Shown in pieces: positions 7,256-42,019 of a stretch of DNA of 42,019 bases (position 1 is the stretch's first letter; the number at the start of each line of letters is the position of its first letter). A program made the position numbers and the translations under genes. This DNA is from a virus, in the IMG/VR virus record IMGVR_UViG_3300026484_000122, positions 1-42,019 of that record. One strand, 5' to 3'. Below the pieces are notes generated by a model. That model worked only from the letters and a program-made list of their open reading frames with translations, was not told the DNA's origin and searched no databases.

Positions 7256-7900
7256 ATGGAAGTTAGAAAATATTGTGAAAAAAGATACGTATTTGACAGT
7301 ATAGAGGAAGTTAAAAAGTTTGTTGATATAGAAAAATGGAGAGAACAGAACTATGAATGGCTAAACGAGGAAATCGATATTTCAATAAGGTGTCAAGCCG
7401 ATTATATTGTAGAGTTTTTGAAAAAAAACGGTTTTTTTAAAGTAGAGCCGTGTTGGAGCTTTAGCTATTCACAAGGAGACGGAGCAAGTTTTTTGGCTGA
7501 ATGGAGCAGACCAGACAGATGGTTGCTTAAAAAGTGGGCTAAAGAGTATTTTCCAAAAGACGACGAAATCACAGACATTATGGAAAGATTAAGAGAGGTA
7601 GTGGACGAATACAAAATCGGTTGGTTTAAAATCGGTAACAATTCATACGGGTGGCATTATTGTCACTCAAACACTAAACAGATTGACGATGTGGAATTTG
7701 AGGCGGACGAATACATAGATGTGGTTGAGAGAGAGCTTGAAGAGGTAGTAAGCGAGTTAATGAGTTGGTTTGAAAATAGACTTGAGGCAATAGCTTATTA
7801 TGAATACACAGATGATGAAATAGCCGAATTAATAGTCACTAATGAGTGGGAAATAGACGAAAGTTGCTTAAAAGAAATACCAGACGGGGGCGAAAAATGA
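7256..7900 (+). CDS. Early protein with 'SQGDGASF' motif, unknown function
   Basis: This acidic 214-residue protein is rich in Trp, Tyr and Glu. Residues of about 69-80 (SFSYSQGDGASF) match a motif I recall from a group of phage-encoded proteins of unknown function, in which the phrase 'SQGDGA' is conserved. That is recall and not a database result. It could be an early inhibitor or mimic given its strong negative charge, but there is no direct evidence. It is coupled by ATGA to a 27-residue membrane peptide gene. Confidence 0.75.
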   Translation: MEVRKYCEKRYVFDSIEEVKKFVDIEKWREQNYEWLNEEIDISIRCQADYIVEFLKKNGFFKVEPCWSFSYSQGDGASFLAEWSRPDRWLLKKWAKEYFPKDDEITDIMERLREVVDEYKIGWFKIGNNSYGWHYCHSNTKQIDDVEFEADEYIDVVERELEEVVSELMSWFENRLEAIAYYEYTDDEIAELIVTNEWEIDESCLKEIPDGGEK

Positions 7901-7980
7901 ACTTTTTAGCTCCGTTGATATTGGTTGTATGGCTTTTAGTTTATGTAATAATAGAAGAAAACAAAAAAGCGAGTGAATAG
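7897..7980 (+). CDS. 27-residue single-span membrane peptide
   Basis: This very short ORF starts in an ATGA overlap with the preceding gene. Residues of about 3-19 (FLAPLILVVWLLVYVII) form one hydrophobic span, followed by a charged tail (EENKKASE). Small early membrane peptides in phages often act on host membrane processes or exclusion, but no specific function can be stated. The coupled start, a GGGGCG stretch as weak RBS and the clean TM profile argue that it is real. Its stop lies 5 bases before hairpin 1 of leader element 5. Confidence 0.6.
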   Translation: MNFLAPLILVVWLLVYVIIEENKKASE

Positions 7981-7985
7981 GTTTT

Positions 7986-8053
7986 TAGTCCTCACTCTTG
8001 GTGAGGATTATAAAGCCTATACGGGCTAACAAAATCAAAACAAGGAGCGAAAA
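7986..8053 (+). promoter_or_regulatory. Leader element 5: two hairpins, A-rich linker, RBS
   Basis: Hairpin 1 pairs TAGTCCTCAC (7986-7995) with GTGAGGATTA (8001-8010), loop TCTTG. Hairpin 2 pairs AGCC (8014-8017) with GGCT (8024-8027). ATAGG (7976-7980) can alternatively pair with CCTAT (8016-8020), competing with hairpin 2. The linker and RBS AAAATCAAAACAAGGAG are identical to those of leader element 3. Confidence 0.6.
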
Positions 8054-8377
8054 ATGGAAGTTTACGTAACTACAAAAGCAAACAGGGTTGCATATATTAA
8101 AATCGACGGAGAAGAGGTAAAATACATTACCGAGATTATCGACAAATACGTCGAGAGTAAAGGGTATAAAATAAGAAACGGATATTTAACAGATGAAAGC
8201 GAAGTTAAGTTATATCTACCACTATACGATGAAGTGTATAACGACAACGACGTTGATTGTGTTTACAATTACGAATACGAAAAACTTGAAAATAAAATAC
8301 AGGAGCTAAAAGAGGAGGTTGTAAAAGCAATAAAAGAGATGGAAAAAGAACAAACACAGATTATCACTTTAGATTAA
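8054..8377 (+). CDS. Small early protein, unknown function
   Basis: This 107-residue protein follows leader element 5. It has a Tyr/Asp/Asn-rich, negatively charged middle (about 52-75) and a C-terminal Lys/Glu helix likely to form a coiled coil (about 78-102). No family was recognised. The overall acidity might fit a DNA-mimic or protein-binding role, which is speculation. Confidence 0.7.
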   Translation: MEVYVTTKANRVAYIKIDGEEVKYITEIIDKYVESKGYKIRNGYLTDESEVKLYLPLYDEVYNDNDVDCVYNYEYEKLENKIQELKEEVVKAIKEMEKEQTQIITLD

Positions 8378-27697: not shown

Positions 27698-28276
27698 TTA
27701 CACCGCCACAGCAGTTGTATTGTCAGGTGCGTCTCCGTCATAATGAGTTTGAGTATCTACAATAGTCACCCTTTCTTCAATGAAGACATTGTGTTCAGGC
27801 GCATAAATCATTACGATATAGTCGCCAGCGGTTGTCATAGACATATCAGGCGTTTTGTAAATACCTGTGTTACCAGCTTGTTGCAATGTTGTTCCAGCAC
27901 TTACAGCAACCTTAATCGGTCTTTTCAAATACGCTTTTCCATTGATAACTTTAAGCACCATCACATACTTGCCTGTTGCGTATTCAATAACATCTCCTGC
28001 TTCAATAGTTGTTGTAGGATTGTCATCTGCGTCCTTGTCTGTCGGGTCAAAATACAACACTCTGCTTCCAGCTGGAGCATATTGTGATACTTTAATTTGT
28101 CTTGGATTGTCGATTGTTTTCACAAATTCTGAACAACCGCCAGACACTTCCGTTACTTGCGTAAGGTCATTAGCAGGCGCATACGATACTGAAAATTCAT
28201 CAGCAGAAGCACCAAACAAAGTTCCTTTTGTTGTTACATCAAGGTTAAACACTTGATTAACTGCTTTTTGAAACAT
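27698..28276 (-). CDS. Virion protein, possibly abundant (own promoter)
   Basis: This 192-residue, beta-rich, weakly acidic protein is rich in Thr, Val, Gly and Ala (for example DPTDKDADDNPTTTIEAGDV). Its composition resembles decoration or tail tube/sleeve subunits. An extended -10 promoter candidate lies 26-34 bases upstream (28302-28310), one of only a few non-coding gaps in the late operon. No family was recognised, so the role is inferred from composition and context. Confidence 0.6.
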   Translation of the reverse strand: MFQKAVNQVFNLDVTTKGTLFGASADEFSVSYAPANDLTQVTEVSGGCSEFVKTIDNPRQIKVSQYAPAGSRVLYFDPTDKDADDNPTTTIEAGDVIEYATGKYVMVLKVINGKAYLKRPIKVAVSAGTTLQQAGNTGIYKTPDMSMTTAGDYIVMIYAPEHNVFIEERVTIVDTQTHYDGDAPDNTTAVAV

Positions 28277-29990: not shown

Positions 29991-32693
29991 TTACTCTCCT
30001 TTAGGGATGATGTTAAACCCGTCTATTGTAGCGTTAGATAATATTTTTTTTCCTATGTCTGTATCAGTAACATCCCTTGTTTTCCATTTATCGCCATCTT
30101 TATATTTTTCGATAACTCGTAACTCATATTCGGCTTCGTCGTATTCATCTTTTTCTGTTAAAGACATCTCTTTTAAAACAATGTTATACCCCTCTTTATA
30201 AGCATTGTTACCATCTGTTTTTGGTAAAACAACAGAGGCGCTTATTTCGTGTTGACAATCACAACCATCAAATTTTTCATATATCGTCTTACCTGTCAAT
30301 AAATCTATTTTTCTTATAAAATGATAAGATTTATCATCAGAACTATCGTCAGAACTATCGTCAGAACTATCGTCAGGGCAATCACCAAAGAACTCAAATG
30401 TCGCAACTCCGTTTGATATAGTAACATATTTAGACGATGTTGTTCCGTTTTTTGTTACATCAAAGCTAACATTGATAGTTACGTCAGCGTCAGAGTTGTA
30501 ATACTCATCGTGATAATATACATCACCAAACTCTGGTAAATCTCCAACTGCTACACTCTCACAATCTACAACTGTTGCTGGATTAAACTCATATACTTCA
30601 TTGTTTTTAAACTTTAAAGGACGTCCGTCAGCATTTTGTTCAGGGTAAAACAAATGAAATAAGTTATCAACTTTAAACTTAAACCCGTTTTCAACTCCAC
30701 TTTTAATTATTGCCTCATTTACAGCACTCCTATCAACCTCTTTTGTAATTCCATATCTTTTACTTATTTGTGCTACATATTTGTCAACAAATTTGTTTAA
30801 AGCGTCCAAATAAACATCAAGATGTGGCTTTAGGTATGAACAATTGTTGACTTCGCCATAAAGAGTAATTTGTTTATCTCTTTGTCGAATTGGGCATTTA
30901 GTTCCTATTAGATTGAAAAGTCGTTGTTTTGTATTACAGGTTAATACGTCATATTTTAACAAATCGTCTATACAGCTTATTGAGCTTGACCCACAATTAC
31001 AAGCATTGTCGGCTAATTTTACACCAAGATAACTCATTATTTTTAAAATACTCGTTCTTATATAGAAATAGCGTGAATAACAAATGTCTTTATCTAATGC
31101 CTCACCTTTTTTAATTTCTATTAATTCTGTTTCATTATCGACTACAAACTTTGTTATTTCTCCGTTTAAAAAATGTTTTTTCATCTTTTCTGCAATTTCG
31201 TTGACCTTTGGTGTGACGTAACCATCATATATTGGCGCGACCGATAAAGTGCTACCCTCTTTTTTAACACCATAAATATAAGAGTTGTCCATTACGCTAT
31301 AATATTTACTGAATATATCAACAGCGTTGTATTTCAGATAATCAGCACTCCCTCTAAAGATGTTAAAGAAAAAGCGTCTATCTTCAGTAAATGTTTTCTT
31401 TAAATTAAAAGAGATAAGACACCCAGAGGCAATTTCAGGATTAATCTTATAACAATCTAAATACTTTGGATTAATACGATATTCAAAAGATAATTCCCCA
31501 TTATTTATCGCTAAATAATGGTGACCACCATTTAGAGTTACTTTTTCTGCACCGCTAATAAAACGGTCTATTATTTTTAAAGCCGTTTGTTGTGAATCTT
31601 GACTTGTCACATATTGTGTGTTTGTTGTATATTTTATTTCTTTTCTATCCCTTGTCAAAAGAAACTCAATACCATCCTCATCAGTGTTACCAATAACCTC
31701 CACCGGATGTTGGTCAAGATAATTAACTACTTTAATTCTTCCATTTTCGTCATACATATTTATGTGTTTATATTTAAAACATAAAACAGGAGTTGAAGTT
31801 TTTATGTTGCAGTTGTATAAATTAGCTAAATAAAGTCTGTTAACGCTGTCAGTGTTGAGGTAAACTTTTTGATTTTTGTAAGAAGAAAAAATGTATAATT
31901 CATAATTGTTATCAGATAAAGACTTAACATAAATATTCGTAGATGTATAAAAACTATCAAGATTTTTGTCTGAATTAATAACTTTAAAAATATCATTTTT
32001 TTCGGCGTCTTCTTGTAAAACCAACAAAATTTGCTTTTCCCCAGATTTCTGAAAAAAAGTAGGGTCTGATTTAGAGCCGTAAACACAAACCTGCCCAATA
32101 GATGTATATCCACCATCATCTCTAATATCTGCCATTACTTTTTTAAAATAAAGAATAGTAAAAAAATATATACTTAATTGTTCCCTGTTTCTCTCCAAAA
32201 TAGAGACAACTTCGCAATCACAATATTTAAGAGGCTCGGGATTAATAAAAATCGAACAACCTGTGTCTTTTCCGTCATTTACTATATTATACTTTTCTAT
32301 CCCTTTTTCTTTTAGTTTGAAATATAGTTCCTCGAAATTTTCTATTTTCACGTGAATAGCAGGAATAAGTGGAGCTATCTCATCTTTTTGTTTTTGTAAA
32401 AAAGCAAATATTTCTACGGCTTTATCCTTATCTTCAAAGCTGTCATAATCCACACATAATTGATATCTATCTATCCCACCGTAACAAATCCTGAACGCTC
32501 CATCTTTAATGTTTAATTGTTTATAGTTAGAAAATTCGGCGACTATGTTTTTAGCTGACGGAAGTAATTTTACGCCAGAGCCTTTAGCACCTTTTGCAAG
32601 ATAAAATGTGTTTGTGTCGCAATCCACAACTCCAACAAACTTATCTAACCATTTTTTTTCTGGGTCGTTCTTTGCTTTAACCATCTTATACAT
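29991..32693 (-). CDS. Large tail protein with Ser-Asp repeat
   Basis: This 900-residue protein is the second largest. It is mixed alpha/beta and Tyr/Asn/Lys-rich, with many Cys. Near residue 774-785 it carries a short Asp-Ser repeat (DDSSDDSSDDSSDD) encoded by a tandem 12-bp DNA repeat. Several Cys clusters (CNCGSSSISCIDD, CDCQHE) could form disulphides or bind metal. Size and place among tail genes suggest a tail hub, spike or fibre. No enzymatic domain was recognised. Confidence 0.65.
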   Translation of the reverse strand: MYKMVKAKNDPEKKWLDKFVGVVDCDTNTFYLAKGAKGSGVKLLPSAKNIVAEFSNYKQLNIKDGAFRICYGGIDRYQLCVDYDSFEDKDKAVEIFAFLQKQKDEIAPLIPAIHVKIENFEELYFKLKEKGIEKYNIVNDGKDTGCSIFINPEPLKYCDCEVVSILERNREQLSIYFFTILYFKKVMADIRDDGGYTSIGQVCVYGSKSDPTFFQKSGEKQILLVLQEDAEKNDIFKVINSDKNLDSFYTSTNIYVKSLSDNNYELYIFSSYKNQKVYLNTDSVNRLYLANLYNCNIKTSTPVLCFKYKHINMYDENGRIKVVNYLDQHPVEVIGNTDEDGIEFLLTRDRKEIKYTTNTQYVTSQDSQQTALKIIDRFISGAEKVTLNGGHHYLAINNGELSFEYRINPKYLDCYKINPEIASGCLISFNLKKTFTEDRRFFFNIFRGSADYLKYNAVDIFSKYYSVMDNSYIYGVKKEGSTLSVAPIYDGYVTPKVNEIAEKMKKHFLNGEITKFVVDNETELIEIKKGEALDKDICYSRYFYIRTSILKIMSYLGVKLADNACNCGSSSISCIDDLLKYDVLTCNTKQRLFNLIGTKCPIRQRDKQITLYGEVNNCSYLKPHLDVYLDALNKFVDKYVAQISKRYGITKEVDRSAVNEAIIKSGVENGFKFKVDNLFHLFYPEQNADGRPLKFKNNEVYEFNPATVVDCESVAVGDLPEFGDVYYHDEYYNSDADVTINVSFDVTKNGTTSSKYVTISNGVATFEFFGDCPDDSSDDSSDDSSDDKSYHFIRKIDLLTGKTIYEKFDGCDCQHEISASVVLPKTDGNNAYKEGYNIVLKEMSLTEKDEYDEAEYELRVIEKYKDGDKWKTRDVTDTDIGKKILSNATIDGFNIIPKGE
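30337..30372. repeat. Tandem 12-bp repeat, three perfect copies
   Basis: TCAGAACTATCG occurs three times head to tail (30337-30348, 30349-30360, 30361-30372), with partial copies on both sides. It encodes Asp-Ser-Ser-Asp units in the 900-residue tail protein. Copy number changes would keep the reading frame, so this is a likely site of length variation. Confidence 0.9.
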
Positions 32694-33810: not shown

Positions 33811-34536
33811 TTAAATTTCAAATTTGGATTTTTTTGTAAAACGATTTTTCACAAAATCAAATATACCTGATTTTGCTCCGCTTTCGTCAAAGTTCAAATA
33901 TATCTTACCATCAGCTTCACTCTCTTTGAATGAAGTTTTGTCATATCTTGCAACTCTTACATCATAAACCTGTTTAGCTTCCTTTTCTGCACCTACGTAG
34001 TTGTAATAATAATTTTCAAAAGCAACAAATTCGTCTTTTTCAAACAGCTTAAACACCTCATAAATAACTTTTTTAACAATGTCTGATTTGTAAAATTGAG
34101 GAGTGTGGGTTGCGTAAGAAAGCCCGTAGAAACCTTTTTTCTTAATTTCTTCAAATCCGACTTTAAGTTTTTTTTGATAAAAACGAGTTCCCCAATTTTT
34201 AATCTTATTGAGGTCTTGCAGATAATAGATTTGTTTCAAGTCATCAGCTGTAATATCTTTAATTAAAAAAAAGTCATCATTGAAAAGCACAAACTCATCA
34301 ACAATGTTACACATAATATCGACTGCGTGCAAAGAGTTTCTATACCTTTTGTCGCATTGACCATAATAGATATATCTCACCTTTGAGATGTTAAGCCATT
34401 TAGGTCTGTATCCAACAATCGTGACATCAAAGTCAGTTTTTAAATGAGTTTCAAGAGAGCGTAAAGAATATTTAAGTTCTTCACAATCACCGATAGATGA
34501 TTTGATAAGAGGGTATAGGATATGGACTTTGTCCAT
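33811..34536 (-). CDS. Stealth-type sugar phosphotransferase/glycosyltransferase
   Basis: This 241-residue protein matches the core of the Stealth family, which transfers hexose-1-phosphate from nucleotide sugars. ELKYSLRSLETHL (about 20-32) leads to VTIVGYRPKWLN (about 38-49), then EFVLFNDDFFLIKDI (Phe85-Asn-Asp-Asp88) and YATHTPQFYKSDI (His144 region). It is short, lacking a clear CR1 and CR4, as in minimal versions. Its ATG overlaps the stop of a protein with an 88-residue Ser/Ala/Gly tail (TAATG), so it probably modifies that tail or other virion proteins. Modification of host envelope glycans is the alternative. Confidence 0.72.
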   Translation of the reverse strand: MDKVHILYPLIKSSIGDCEELKYSLRSLETHLKTDFDVTIVGYRPKWLNISKVRYIYYGQCDKRYRNSLHAVDIMCNIVDEFVLFNDDFFLIKDITADDLKQIYYLQDLNKIKNWGTRFYQKKLKVGFEEIKKKGFYGLSYATHTPQFYKSDIVKKVIYEVFKLFEKDEFVAFENYYYNYVGAEKEAKQVYDVRVARYDKTSFKESEADGKIYLNFDESGAKSGIFDFVKNRFTKKSKFEI

Positions 34537-35279
34537 TATCCCTCTCCGCCAGCACTTCCACTTGCACTTGCAGAGCCAGAAGCACTTGCTTCACCGCTTG
34601 CGCTTGCGCTTTCACTTGCTTCACCGCTTGCGCTTGCAGAACTGCTACCTGAAGCACTTGCTTCACCTGACGCAGAAGCAGACCCAGAAGCACTTGCTGA
34701 ACTTGAGGCGCTACCTGTTGAGCTACCGTTACCTGTCGCACTTGCACTTGCAGAGCCACTGCCTGTTGCAGAGCCACTTGCACTTCCGCTACCGCTTTCT
34801 GAAAGAATTAACGGTTTTAATTTATCCGCTAAAACAGTAAGTTGGTCATCAGTAATGTTTTTAAGAATAGCACCAGCAACATATAATGAAATCTTGTCCC
34901 AATCAATCATTCTTTTGTTGTCAGCGTCAACAGTTACATATTCATTAAATGTGTTTAGTTGAGTTTTAATATTCTCAATAGTTGTCGCATTATTGTCAAC
35001 TTTACCTGAAAGGTTTTCAAAATCTTCTCCCAAAGAAGAAAGGTCGTTTTGCAGTCCTGAAACATTGTCTTTTAACTCTGAAATTTTAGTTGAATTTGCA
35101 GTAACTTTTTTATTGACATTTTCCAAATCGCTTTGAATGTCTGAAAAATCACCCTCATAAAAATTTTTAATCCAAGTATTGATAGTTTCAATGTTTTTAA
35201 AATTCTCGTCAATCTGCTCTTTTGTTAAAGGCGTTTCTTGCGAACTTCTATACGTAATATTAATTACAGGTAAATCCAT
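34536..35279 (-). CDS. Fibre-like protein with long Ser/Ala/Gly repeat tail
   Basis: A 247-residue protein. Residues 1-40 carry the fibre-type start (TPLTKEQIDENFKNI). About 45-115 form a coiled coil of trimeric-fibre type, then comes a small domain (about 117-158). Residues of about 160-247 are almost only Ser, Ala and Gly with a few Thr/Glu/Asn, built from SASG/EAS units. The Ser/Thr-rich tail looks like an O-glycosylation target or flexible spacer. The Stealth-like transferase gene follows with a one-base overlap. A similar, shorter tail is on the protein at 35677-36498. Confidence 0.75.
   Translation of the reverse strand: MDLPVINITYRSSQETPLTKEQIDENFKNIETINTWIKNFYEGDFSDIQSDLENVNKKVTANSTKISELKDNVSGLQNDLSSLGEDFENLSGKVDNNATTIENIKTQLNTFNEYVTVDADNKRMIDWDKISLYVAGAILKNITDDQLTVLADKLKPLILSESGSGSASGSATGSGSASASATGNGSSTGSASSSASASGSASASGEASASGSSSASASGEASESASASGEASASGSASASGSAGGEG
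34539..34802. repeat. Degenerate repeat encoding the Ser/Ala/Gly tail
   Basis: About 264 bp are built from variants of CACTTGC, CTTGCGCTTGC and GAAGCACTTGC units, giving a simple periodic pattern unlike the surrounding DNA (higher GC). It encodes residues of about 160-247 of the fibre-like protein. A shorter related stretch at about 35685-35765 encodes the tail of another virion protein. Slippage or recombination between copies is likely. Confidence 0.8.
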
Positions 35280-35301
35280 TTTGTTCTCCTTTTTTTTAGT
35301 T

Positions 35302-35643
35302 TTAAATTACTCCAACCTCAATATCTCCGTCTGTCGCTTCTAACGCTTCAATCCTGTTTTCAAGATTTTGAGCGTCAAGAATTGTAAACGCAATCATATT
35401 GAGATTTGGGTCTTTCTTCATACTGTATTTTGTTTCACAGGCGTCTGAAAACACACGCCAGATTTTTCTATTCTTTGCAAAGAACACATCACCGAAAAAA
35501 TAGTTAATGTAGTTTCCATCTTCATCTTTATTTTCATCAGCGTCCTGAAACTTATTTAACCAATTCTGCGTCCATTTTAAAGCGTCTGTTTCGCTTATTG
35601 TTGAATTTGGTCTGACAAGCACCTCTTTTTTATATAGAGCCAT
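35302..35643 (-). CDS. Small virion protein, unknown
   Basis: A 113-residue protein lying between the two Ser/Ala/Gly-tailed genes. The N-terminal half is helical (TISETDALKWTQNWLNKF) with an acidic DADENKDEDGN loop. The C-terminus (MIAFTILDAQNLENRIEALE) ends in a short coiled coil. Its position suggests an adaptor or chaperone for the fibre-like proteins. No family was recognised. Confidence 0.6.
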   Translation of the reverse strand: MALYKKEVLVRPNSTISETDALKWTQNWLNKFQDADENKDEDGNYINYFFGDVFFAKNRKIWRVFSDACETKYSMKKDPNLNMIAFTILDAQNLENRIEALEATDGDIEVGVI

Positions 35644-35676
35644 TGTATCTCCTTTTAGTAAGATGAGAGGCGTCCA

Positions 35677-36498
35677 TTATAGGACTGCCCCATCGCCGCT
35701 TGCACTACCACTGCCTGAAGCGCTACCACTCGCAGAGCCAGAAGCAGAGCCACTACCACTTGCGTTACACGCAGTATCGCAACATTCACTTTCAGATTTG
35801 CCTTGAAGACCGCAATCAAGCGCCTGTGCGAACATTGAAGCAATAACACAAACATCAACATTGTCGATTTTTTCATCAACATATTGTTTAGCTTCGTCAA
35901 CAGCCCCAGCTTTAGCGTCTGCTATTTCACTTTCAAGTTCAGTTTTAGTTGCGTCAACTTTGTCGTTAACATTTTTTAATTCTGTGTCAAGAATTTGAGT
36001 TGCATTATGAAGACTTGTAGCGTCCTTAATATAATTTGCGTTAGTGTCGGCTACATAGTTTCCGTTTTCATCAAGCCCAGCCCCAGCTTCAATAGCGTCA
36101 ATTTCGTCTTTAAGATTAGCAACGCTCTCGTCGCTGTCACCTTTTAAAGCGTCAATTTGAGCTTGCAGGTCGTCTTTTGCTTGTTTTACTTTATAGTCAA
36201 CTGACCCAGCAGTGCTTTCATCTCCGTTAAGAGTGTTTACTGCATTTTCAAGAGCAACAATTCTGTTTAGATGGTCAGTCAGTTGGGTTACTATATTTTG
36301 ACCGACATCAAATTCTGGTGTATCTGGGTCTGCGTCTAACAGTCCTTGTATTGTTTCAATAGCTGATTGTAGTTTGTTAATGTCAACATTTTCAGCTTGA
36401 ATAACTTTCTCAATTTCAGATTTTACTTTCGCACCAACGGTATAACCAAAATGTTGGGCTACTTGTCCTAAAATTTGCTGTAAATTGTTCTGTGCCAT
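35677..36498 (-). CDS. Coiled-coil virion protein with Cys cluster and Ser/Ala/Gly tail
   Basis: A 273-residue protein. A long helical/coiled-coil body (about 20-210) is followed by a Cys-rich segment with six Cys between about 217 and 244 (including ECCDTAC). A 29-residue tail of Ser, Gly and Ala (SGSGSASGSASGSASG type) ends the protein. The tail resembles that of the protein at 34536-35279. The coiled coil suggests a trimeric fibre or head-tail fibre. The Cys cluster could cross-link the trimer. The family was not recognised. Confidence 0.68.
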   Translation of the reverse strand: MAQNNLQQILGQVAQHFGYTVGAKVKSEIEKVIQAENVDINKLQSAIETIQGLLDADPDTPEFDVGQNIVTQLTDHLNRIVALENAVNTLNGDESTAGSVDYKVKQAKDDLQAQIDALKGDSDESVANLKDEIDAIEAGAGLDENGNYVADTNANYIKDATSLHNATQILDTELKNVNDKVDATKTELESEIADAKAGAVDEAKQYVDEKIDNVDVCVIASMFAQALDCGLQGKSESECCDTACNASGSGSASGSASGSASGSGSASGDGAVL

Positions 36499-36564: not shown

Positions 36565-36975
36565 TTAATAAGTGTCATCTACCTCAAAGCTGTGATTTGA
36601 TTTGTAGATGGAAATAACACCGCTTGCTTTTTGCTCATAGTAATCTTTTTGTTTAAACGATAAGTAAGCACAACACATAAAAACAAATGCAGTATGTAGG
36701 TCAATGTCCAAATCTATTTCTTCACTGTCTGACAACACTTGCGGAGTTCTTATGTATCTTGTGTGAACTACGCCCTTGCTGTCCTCATATTTATCCACAA
36801 CTCTAAAAACATCATTAGGGATAGAAGTTGTATATTCTTTTAAAAGATGGATAGGCTCACACAGCGTGGCTATCTCCTGTAAAGCCTGTTGAGCGACAAG
36901 CTCTGTTACTTCGGTGTTAGAATTATCGCCAAGCAGGAATTGCTTGACGAGAGTTTTAGCCTGTCCGTAAGTCAC
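36565..36975 (-). CDS. Putative head-tail adaptor protein
   Basis: This 136-residue protein is encoded immediately after the major capsid gene (one-base overlap). It is mostly helical at both ends (YGQAKTLVKQFLLGDNS; DLHTAFVFMCCAYLSFKQKDYYEQ) with a beta region between. Size, helical layout and location directly after the capsid gene match adaptor/gateway proteins that bind the portal ring in short-tailed phages. The assignment is by position and fold-like pattern, not by a named motif. Confidence 0.6.
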   Translation of the reverse strand: MTYGQAKTLVKQFLLGDNSNTEVTELVAQQALQEIATLCEPIHLLKEYTTSIPNDVFRVVDKYEDSKGVVHTRYIRTPQVLSDSEEIDLDIDLHTAFVFMCCAYLSFKQKDYYEQKASGVISIYKSNHSFEVDDTY

Positions 36976-37895
36976 TATTTAAGCCCTTTTGCGAACGCAA
37001 ACATATCAGGCTCTTTAACTTCAAGAGTTAAAGATGTATAGTATCTTCCGAATTTAGCAGTTTTACTTGTAGGCACTTCACTGAATTTAGTAGGGATTTT
37101 AAATCTGATGTCCGCACTGTCTAACTGACCTACAAGGATTTTGTCTTTTAGTTTTGCATTGTTAAACAATCTGTGGATTTTAACTTTGATGTCTCCAAAA
37201 TCAGTTGTAACTACATACAATGTCGGGTCGAATTTTCCGTTAGGATTTTGTTGCCATCTGAAATAATCTTTAGCAAATCCATTGATTGTTCTTTTAATAC
37301 CTGTGCCGCATACAAGCGTAAATGTTTCGTTATCAATGTCTGCGTTGTTCCATACCATCTCAATAATTTCATTTAGCCTGTCGTATGTTAATTCGGTAGC
37401 ATTACCGCCATCAGAGTAATCTTTTTTATTTTCGATGTAATGGAAAATACCAGCCATTTTAGCAGGTGTGGTATCAGACATTTCAGTATATCCGTCTTCA
37501 ACACTTGCATTGTGTAATCCAAGTAACGCATATTCAATATCCATTGTATGTTCTTTTCCAACTTTTGCTACCCTGTAAGCCCACTCTTTCTGACCATATT
37601 TTGCGTTGTCGTCTTCTTCCCAAGATAATCCAAATTCATTCTTGATAATTTGGACGACATTATCTTTCATATATTTAGTGTCAGTTGTGTTCTCTTCAAG
37701 GTCTGTTACTTCAAGCTGTGCATTCTCATCAGCTTTTCTGTATCTGTCCAAAATCCAACTATGTTTTGGGGCAGATATTTTTTGCCCTCTTCCAAACCAT
37801 TGCAGGAACGGCGTAGATGTCGCACCTTGTAAAAGTATTGCGTCTAAAACGGACGGCTTTTGGTTAACCGTATTATTATACGAAGTTAAAGGCAT
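36975..37895 (-). CDS. Major capsid protein (SU10/DUF5309 type)
   Basis: This 306-residue protein has the hallmarks of the SU10-like major head protein family: SVLDAILLQGATSTPFLQWFG near the N-terminus, then HSWILDRYR and a DNVVQIIKNEFGLSWEED strand. The central KVGKEHTMDIEYALLGL and C-terminal VKIHRLFNNAKLKDKILVGQ are also typical. It follows the scaffold gene in the operon and forms the HK97-fold shell. A weak promoter candidate upstream (37933-37962) would support high expression. Confidence 0.88.
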   Translation of the reverse strand: MPLTSYNNTVNQKPSVLDAILLQGATSTPFLQWFGRGQKISAPKHSWILDRYRKADENAQLEVTDLEENTTDTKYMKDNVVQIIKNEFGLSWEEDDNAKYGQKEWAYRVAKVGKEHTMDIEYALLGLHNASVEDGYTEMSDTTPAKMAGIFHYIENKKDYSDGGNATELTYDRLNEIIEMVWNNADIDNETFTLVCGTGIKRTINGFAKDYFRWQQNPNGKFDPTLYVVTTDFGDIKVKIHRLFNNAKLKDKILVGQLDSADIRFKIPTKFSEVPTSKTAKFGRYYTSLTLEVKEPDMFAFAKGLK

Positions 37896-40789: not shown

Positions 40790-41261
40790 TTTCTTTCAAC
40801 CTTTTTTTTATTCTGAATGCTTTTCTTATGTGGATACCAAGCATTTTAGAAACTTTGCTTGCAGAGTATCCAGCTTTAAACAGCTCTTCTGCTAAAATCA
40901 GCTCCACGATTTTCCAACTCAAATCTATCTTTAATGAATTATACCGCAAACTTTTTTGATATGCAAGAGTTTCGCCGTAAAAATCTATTAAATTTGTCAC
41001 ACTTTTTGGAAATGTCTTTCTCTTCAGCTTCTTTTTGCAGTTGTCTAAACTCAATCCCATCTTGTTGCATATCGGCTTTTTATTGCCAAGCAAGTGCCAA
41101 ATCTTTTTAAGTATCCACGCTTCCATAGCTTTCTTGCTAAAAAGCACGGGGATTATTTTCTTTTCTTTCCACAGCTTGACAAACCTGTCCATATCTTCAC
41201 GCATAAGCTCTCTGTGTATATCTTTGTTTATCTCTTTTGTAAACTGTATTTCACTTACCAT
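40776..41261 (-). CDS. HTH protein between terminase and portal
   Basis: This 161-residue basic protein has a C-terminal helix-turn-helix (about 128-156: AEELFKAGYSASKVSKMLGI, then HIRKAFRIKKRLKEN). A Lys-rich, Cys-containing middle and a helical N-terminus (INKDIHRELMREDMDRFVKL) precede it. It overlaps terL by 7 bp and the portal gene by 14 bp, so it belongs to the packaging block. It may bind packaging-site DNA as a second terminase-associated protein or regulate the late operon. The family was not recognised. Confidence 0.72.
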   Translation of the reverse strand: MVSEIQFTKEINKDIHRELMREDMDRFVKLWKEKKIIPVLFSKKAMEAWILKKIWHLLGNKKPICNKMGLSLDNCKKKLKRKTFPKSVTNLIDFYGETLAYQKSLRYNSLKIDLSWKIVELILAEELFKAGYSASKVSKMLGIHIRKAFRIKKRLKENGEI

Positions 41262-42019
41262 AATCCACCGCCGTATGAATAGGTTAAAGGAATATTGTCC
41301 AACATTTCAAACTCCTCTTCGCTTTCAGTTTCAAATTCAACCAAAGCCTCGTCAGCAAAAGTCATAGCGAATGCGTCCGCAATATCTGGCGAACGACCAA
41401 GTCTGTCACGTATTTTCTTTTTGGCTTCTATTTGAAGTTTGCCTGTCTGCTCGTTGATAAAATATGTTATTGCTCCAAGCTCACCTATGAGGTCGTCATC
41501 GTGCATAAGTTTGCCCTCTTCTCTCAATGCGTCACGCATTTTAAAAAACCACTCGGCTCTTGCGTTCTGGTATTCGTCAGTGTTAAAGGGCTTATGTGAG
41601 GCTTTTACGCCTATCACATTTTTTAGTCCTACTTTTTGACACATAGACGGAATTGAAGCACCAGAGCCGATAGTATCCACAAAAATGATTTTCGGCTTTC
41701 TTTTAGCCTGCTTGTATTCTCTCACAAGCCAACCGACTAAATCAGAAGCGTCATAGTTCCTAACTGCCTTATATTCATACAGGTGTTTTCCGTATCTTTT
41801 AGCTATAACGCTCCTGTCAGCTCCGTAATCGGCAACATCTAATGCCCATACTTCTACGCCTGTTTTATCCCAGATGTCTCTGTATATCGCAGTCTCAATT
41901 AAATCGACAGGAAATACTGCGTCGTCAGACCCTCTCGGAAATTCGCCAAGCACCCTTACACGATAAACATCGCTGTCGTAGCCGTATTTTTTTCTAAACA
42001 TCTCAATGGCTTTACGGCT
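41214..42019. repeat. Right copy of terminal redundancy
   Basis: This is the second copy of bases 1-806. It covers the first 48 bases of the HTH gene at 40776-41261 and the last 255 codons of the large terminase. It is about 96.5% identical to the left copy by manual count, and the differences are almost all silent. It is therefore not an exact direct terminal repeat of one molecule. Confidence 0.95.
41255..42019 (-). CDS. terL: Terminase large subunit, second variant (partial)
   Basis: This is the C-terminal 254 residues plus stop of TerL. The 5' end is cut off by the window at a codon boundary. It is the same gene as 42-1472 but with 28 nucleotide differences in the shared part and two Ile/Val changes (one near FVDTI, one near EALVEFE). 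The nuclease residues SPDIADAF and FVDTIGSG are conserved. Both variants look functional. Confidence 0.93.
   Translation of the reverse strand, partial: SRKAIEMFRKKYGYDSDVYRVRVLGEFPRGSDDAVFPVDLIETAIYRDIWDKTGVEVWALDVADYGADRSVIAKRYGKHLYEYKAVRNYDASDLVGWLVREYKQAKRKPKIIFVDTIGSGASIPSMCQKVGLKNVIGVKASHKPFNTDEYQNARAEWFFKMRDALREEGKLMHDDDLIGELGAITYFINEQTGKLQIEAKKKIRDRLGRSPDIADAFAMTFADEALVEFETESEEEFEMLDNIPLTYSYGGGLW

Follow-up and report, generated by a model that had tools for sequence, protein, structure and literature searches.

Does a phage that encodes a Stealth-type sugar transferase directly behind proteins with long serine-rich tails use this enzyme to decorate its own virion? The question arose from a preliminary description of the virus record IMGVR_UViG_3300026484_000122 (IMG/VR), all 42,019 nt of which were studied and are called the window here. 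Our work points, with a probability of roughly 0.55, to a dedicated tail-modifying transferase that would act on the co-encoded Ser/Ala/Gly tails. According to profile searches, the window encodes an SU10-type major capsid protein and a portal protein. An 806-bp direct repeat is present at both window ends (1-806 and 41214-42019, 96.5% identity). The repeat lies inside the large terminase gene, with 42-1472 and 41255-42001 each matching phrog_2, and these repeated terminase ends suggest that the genome measures about 41.2 kb, is circular or permuted, and was assembled with an overlap from mixed strains. Since the named phages closest by capsid infect Campylobacter and Helicobacter and capsid relatives are present in Campylobacterota MAGs, the host phylum is probably Campylobacterota. 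The features that matter for the question are all encoded on the minus strand:

33811..34536 (-): Stealth-type (GNPTAB/CpsY-fold) transferase, 241 aa (Stealth_CR2, phrog_7999, AF2, Foldseek)
34536..35279 (-): protein B, 247 aa, with an N-terminal PLTKEQIDENF motif, a coiled coil and an 88-residue Ser/Ala/Gly C-terminal tail
34539..34802 (-): tail of protein B, 88 residues with 38 Ser (ORF translation, composition)
35302..35643 (-): small gene for a 113-aa protein, conserved in the block (homologues in relatives, a distant one in the contig L006)
35677..36498 (-): protein A, 273 aa, with a coiled coil and a tail ending in DGAVL (ORF, composition)
35680..35766 (-): tail of protein A, 29 residues with 11 Ser (ORF translation, composition)
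36975..37895 (-): SU10-type major capsid protein (PF17236, E 1e-54), the lineage marker for the tree

The reading frames, lengths and composition of the two tails are as the preliminary description had given them, and the start of the transferase gene indeed uses the last A of the protein B stop codon TAA (TAATG overlap). Beyond its 38 Ser, the protein B tail holds 22 Ala, 18 Gly, 3 Thr and 6 acidic but no basic residues; the last 29 residues of protein A, NASGSGSASGSASGSASGSGSASGDGAVL, comprise 6 Ala and 8 Gly in addition to the 11 Ser. The Ser codons are mixed (TCA, TCT, AGC and AGT), as are those for Ala and Gly, which rules out replication or DNA slippage as the source of the tails and argues for selection on the protein, with the amino acid composition being what stays. 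The assignment of proteins A and B to the virion or its fibres is based on their position in the structural block, their coiled-coil content and the PLTxEQxDxNF motif, and both probably belong to the fibre or the collar of a podovirus-like virion. Profile searches with the two proteins gave no match to a specific virion profile, and matches to Pfam coiled-coil families were discarded as an effect of composition. Elsewhere in the window, a 900-aa protein (29991-32693) contains an internal acidic tract, DDSSDDSSDDSSDD; no convincing match for this protein was obtained in profile searches.

The family and the fold of the transferase are firmly established. The motifs EFVLFNDDFF and PKWLN, from which a Stealth-like enzyme had initially been proposed, both belong to Stealth CR2 and align with FIYLNDDVMF and PSWLN of GNPTAB. 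The Pfam Stealth_CR2 profile matches the 241-aa protein with 28.2 bits (E 2e-6), below the curated cut-off of 39.4; the four enzymes that are paired with a tail score 17-33 bits, with the scores shown lying below 39.4 and, where shown, covering the same range of the profile. Among 44 aligned phage family members, 42 match CR2 (E<=1e-3), and all 44, including the window protein (E 2e-21), match phrog_7999, a phage protein family with no assigned function. With only the four tail-paired phage enzymes in the profile, GNPTAB is found over CR2 and CR3 (E 5e-5); a second profile, to which more phage sequences and genuine Stealth proteins of bacteria were added, finds GNPTAB (1e-30) and CpsY (8e-23), values that partly reflect its bacterial members. 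The AF2 model obtained from the 44 sequences has a pLDDT of 92 and a pTM of 0.90, and the top 12 Foldseek matches are all GNPTAB or CpsY chains. Over its whole length the model superimposes on the human GlcNAc-1-phosphotransferase (9bgf; Z 20.1, 227 residues, 2.8 A, VIA); Z scores are 17.7-20.1 for Stealth enzymes and 13.2 for the best non-Stealth fold, the next structural neighbours being ordinary glycosyltransferases of GT6 and GT8.

The search with the individual Stealth regions thus confirmed CR2, though below threshold, and nothing beyond it: the CR4 profile does not match the window protein, and CR1 is unrecognisable. The enzyme begins with VHILYPLIKSS, which forms a strand in the model and aligns from residue 1 onward to the end of CR1 of GNPTAB, but no WVDG/TWV of the CR1 motif (IDVVYTF-like) follows this strand. 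Other phage family members begin with MDFVYICR, which is closer to CR1. Moreover, YLNFDE (Asn215, Asp217) resembles the CLND/CIND tetrapeptide of CR4. By its predicted fold and CR2, the 241-aa enzyme is a member of the Stealth family, in a divergent and compact branch. Searching the GTDB genomes with the enzyme returned no relative, and in 397 Campylobacterota genomes the hits were confined to canonical Stealth proteins of bacteria and a single, doubtful match over part of the sequence.

Which chemistry the enzyme might catalyse depends on its active site. R322, E389, N406-D407-D408, H956, R986 and N1151 are essential in the human enzyme (PMC11418123), and in CpsY the CR3 residue is R419, the exchange of which for Lys or Gln abolishes activity (PMC10668966). 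The window enzyme keeps N86-D87-D88, H144 at the position of the general base and, in the CR4-like YLNFDE, N215; K12 is located near the position of R322. The catalytic NDD is found in three of the four tail-paired enzymes and reads MDD in L006, the general base His is present in all, and the CR4-like LN.D is retained in the tail-paired enzymes as well. By contrast, a sequence alignment anchored by Y177 and N179 places Glu174 at the R986/R419 position in all four tail-paired enzymes, as opposed to Arg in 40/40 unpaired phage enzymes, and the CR4 position holds Asn in the tail-paired enzymes and Ser in the 40 unpaired ones. Since the CR3 Arg is needed in both CpsY and GNPTAB, its apparent replacement by Glu suggests either that another residue substitutes for it, a candidate being Arg197, which is invariant across the paired clade, or that the chemistry or the acceptor has changed. 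For the same reason, it is less certain than the preliminary description had assumed that a sugar phosphate is formed.

Two versions of a tail modification have to be distinguished here. The acceptors of the characterised Stealth enzymes are sugars, not Ser (PMC7729866), and in the docked human enzyme R986 touches the sugar acceptor; the loss of its equivalent would fit a non-sugar acceptor. It is tempting to speculate that the enzyme puts sugar-1-phosphate directly on the Ser residues of the virion tails, i. e. a phage protein phosphoglycosylation, with the CR3 Arg having been lost as a peptide took the place of the sugar acceptor; we regard this version as possible, if on the doubtful side. 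The nearest rival, which seems somewhat unlikely to us, is the transfer of the sugar only, i. e. ordinary O-glycosylation of Ser, with the Glu in CR3 having abolished or altered phosphate transfer. The strict distribution of Glu174 and Arg between paired and unpaired enzymes would agree with such a loss, as would the GT-A fold with GT6 and GT8 enzymes as next neighbours; however, H144 and D88, the pair proposed for the phosphotransfer mechanism, are retained together with the CR4-like Asn, and the Z scores of the Stealth enzymes lie far above those of other GT-A folds.

The pairing of enzyme and tail itself is real, and few independent events are behind it. In the window and in L002, L003 and L006, a gene for a tailed protein is followed by the transferase gene, the starts overlapping or nearly abutting. 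L002 and L003 share the gene order of the window (tailed protein A, the 113-aa gene, tailed protein B, enzyme), the first two being separated by one additional gene in L003. In these relatives the enzyme is 70-78% identical and the body of protein B only 35%, but the composition of the tail is kept. L006, a contig of 176 kb, belongs to a different phage; there, the gene for a 60%-identical enzyme comes directly behind that for a 476-aa protein whose tail has a Ser/Gly/Thr/Asp composition, and two other proteins, of 928 and 198 aa, contribute further Ser/Gly tracts, which makes three in total. The 476-aa protein shows no homology to protein B over its body, suggesting that composition is shared rather than ancestry. 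L006 is not fully independent of the window, since it holds distant homologues of the 113-aa gene, located near a Ser/Gly-tract protein, and of the window gene 27698-28276. As the podovirus-like window, L002 and L003 form one clade in the tree (99/100 support), the association is based on about two independent events. Scans with alignments of protein A and of the 113-aa protein found no further genomes.

Relatives that have only one of the two partners define how far the pairing extends. Seven capsid relatives without the enzyme, as judged by searches with the enzyme and CR2 profiles (L016 being a 10-kb fragment), have a protein A homologue that ends similarly in GAVI/L, and none of these carries a long Ser tail (0/7). 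In some enzyme-less homologues of protein A the end is rich in Pro or a short run of Gly/Asp, and the enzyme-less L014 has a Thr/Gly repeat tail (TGTTTGTTTGTATGTATG) on the protein (7512-8102) after the 113-aa homologue. L021 and L022 encode a 255-aa protein with a short Ser/Thr end at the position of protein A; no enzyme was seen in these fragments of 10-11 kb. Long (Ser-Ala-Ser-Gly)n linkers or tails occur in L037 (9150-11636), L040 (1475-3883), L046 (1-1658) and L041 (4319-5839), and no Stealth-like gene was found in these records. Unpaired relatives of the enzyme are present in at least 427 IMG/VR stretches, and none of the 80 loci inspected has a convincing tail near the Stealth-like gene; seven candidate tail ORFs near unpaired loci, mostly on the minus strand and with a GC-rich look, were judged by eye to be out of frame or weak and were not counted. 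Thus, the linkage proposed initially is conserved in the clade and in L006, and enzyme-less relatives lack the long tail, but as a general rule it is not supported.

The surroundings of the unpaired genes vary. Some adjoin glycosyltransferases of the GT4+CAP59 type and FkbM methyltransferases (L093:2045-3961, L101:2029-3939, L101:4666-5319 and L120:4667-5314). In L084 (3063-5584) and L085 (1918-4439), the phrog_7999 gene has 4 bases in common with the end of a capsid gene of the P22/Phage_capsid_2 type, and a gene resembling NAD epimerase/GDP-mannose dehydratase (nucleotide-sugar dehydratase-like) follows. As judged from gene order, this context is an independent putative link of Stealth enzymes to virion proteins, and the neighbours as a whole would fit an enzyme acting on virion or surface glycans. 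In isolated actinophages, homologues are located either among genes with no structural role or ahead of the terminase at the left end.

Fibre regions often hold host-interaction genes, and the enzyme might have reached this site by co-travel, with the tails being flexible linkers and the target a glycan on the surface of the host (capsule or LPS) that is modified for receptor masking or superinfection exclusion. The known Stealth enzymes work on polysaccharides (PMC10668966, PMC5974469), and the varied ends that relatives carry at the same place make a low-complexity end ordinary; yet it is the Ser-rich composition, rather than any linker, that accompanies the enzyme in two distinct types of phage, and the translational coupling and the placement in the structural block also argue against a host target, which we consider distinctly unlikely. 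That enzyme and tails were merely co-inherited in a fibre cassette without acting on each other, by coincidence or shared ancestry, would agree with the single clade and with the distant homologues in L006 but is highly improbable given that the L006 tailed protein has an unrelated body and a tail of Ser/Gly/Thr/Asp instead of Ser/Ala/Gly.

We therefore return to the dedicated tail-modifying enzyme. In its favour are (i) the fold and family with the kept catalytic residues, (ii) the gene order, the tail composition outlasting the divergence of protein B and the mixed Ser codons, and (iii) the lack of a long Ser tail in enzyme-less relatives, the three tracts of L006 and the capsid context of L084 and L085. 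Against it stand the roughly two independent events, Glu174, the sugar acceptors of known Stealth enzymes, the linkers without enzyme, the enzyme family mostly without tails, and the short Ser/Thr tail of L021 and L022. The conserved pattern suggests that the enzyme adds a sugar phosphate, or a sugar, to the tails, and we infer the following course: The compact GT-A-fold transferase would be made together with proteins A and B and would draw on a nucleotide sugar of the infected host cell, the Ser hydroxyls of the disordered tails would be modified before or during assembly, with phosphate co-transfer if Stealth chemistry is kept, and the virion would gain a charged or glycosylated brush that may mask it, alter adsorption or stabilise it.

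Virion glycosylation by phages is already known. For the pairing of a Stealth enzyme with a Ser tail we found no description, nor did we find any paper in the open-licence literature that connects Stealth proteins with phage fibres or virions. The locus provides a candidate enzyme and substrate for the self-glycosylation of virions in phages other than those of mycobacteria, a likely biochemical class for the uncharacterised family phrog_7999 with its more than 400 IMG/VR relatives, and, with just 241 residues, a minimal Stealth enzyme whose acceptor may be a peptide, which bears on the substrate choice of GNPTAB-type enzymes.

GNPTAB (PDB 9bgf/7s6n) and Mtb CpsY (8j2n) share with the window enzyme the whole-chain fold, the NDD, the His general base, the CR2 sequence and the C-terminal F..KS.FE signature. 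They differ in that the window enzyme has only 241 aa, an unrecognisable CR1 motif, no long spacers and Glu for the CR3 Arg; moreover, their known acceptors are sugars, whereas Ser is proposed here. In the other sampled phrog_7999 members, the CR3 Arg is retained, Ser takes the position of the CR4 Asn and no Ser tail lies nearby. In the mycobacteriophages Che8 (gp110), Corndog (gp38) and Myrna, the virion proteins are glycosylated by enzymes that the phage itself encodes (Freeman et al. 2023, as cited in PMC12363180). The targets described there are capsid and tail-tube proteins and the enzymes other glycosyltransferases, and that text mentions neither a Stealth enzyme nor a paired Ser tail. 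Common to both would be a phage enzyme acting on a phage virion protein, as gene linkage suggests for the window. The SD-repeat adhesins of staphylococci have dedicated glycosyltransferases, SdgA and SdgB (PMC3794999). Both these and the serine-rich repeat adhesins combine a low-complexity Ser-rich protein with dedicated glycosyltransferases; co-encoding of the two, by which serine-rich repeat loci are recognised, is found in our four genomes, the substrate relation being putative. The adhesins differ in being bacterial cell-wall proteins and in using other transferase families. Finally, the proteophosphoglycans of Leishmania, although eukaryotic and secreted, carry Man-alpha-1-PO4-Ser on mucin-like tracts (PMC6817596), and this sugar-1-phosphate-Ser is the very product that the window enzyme may form.
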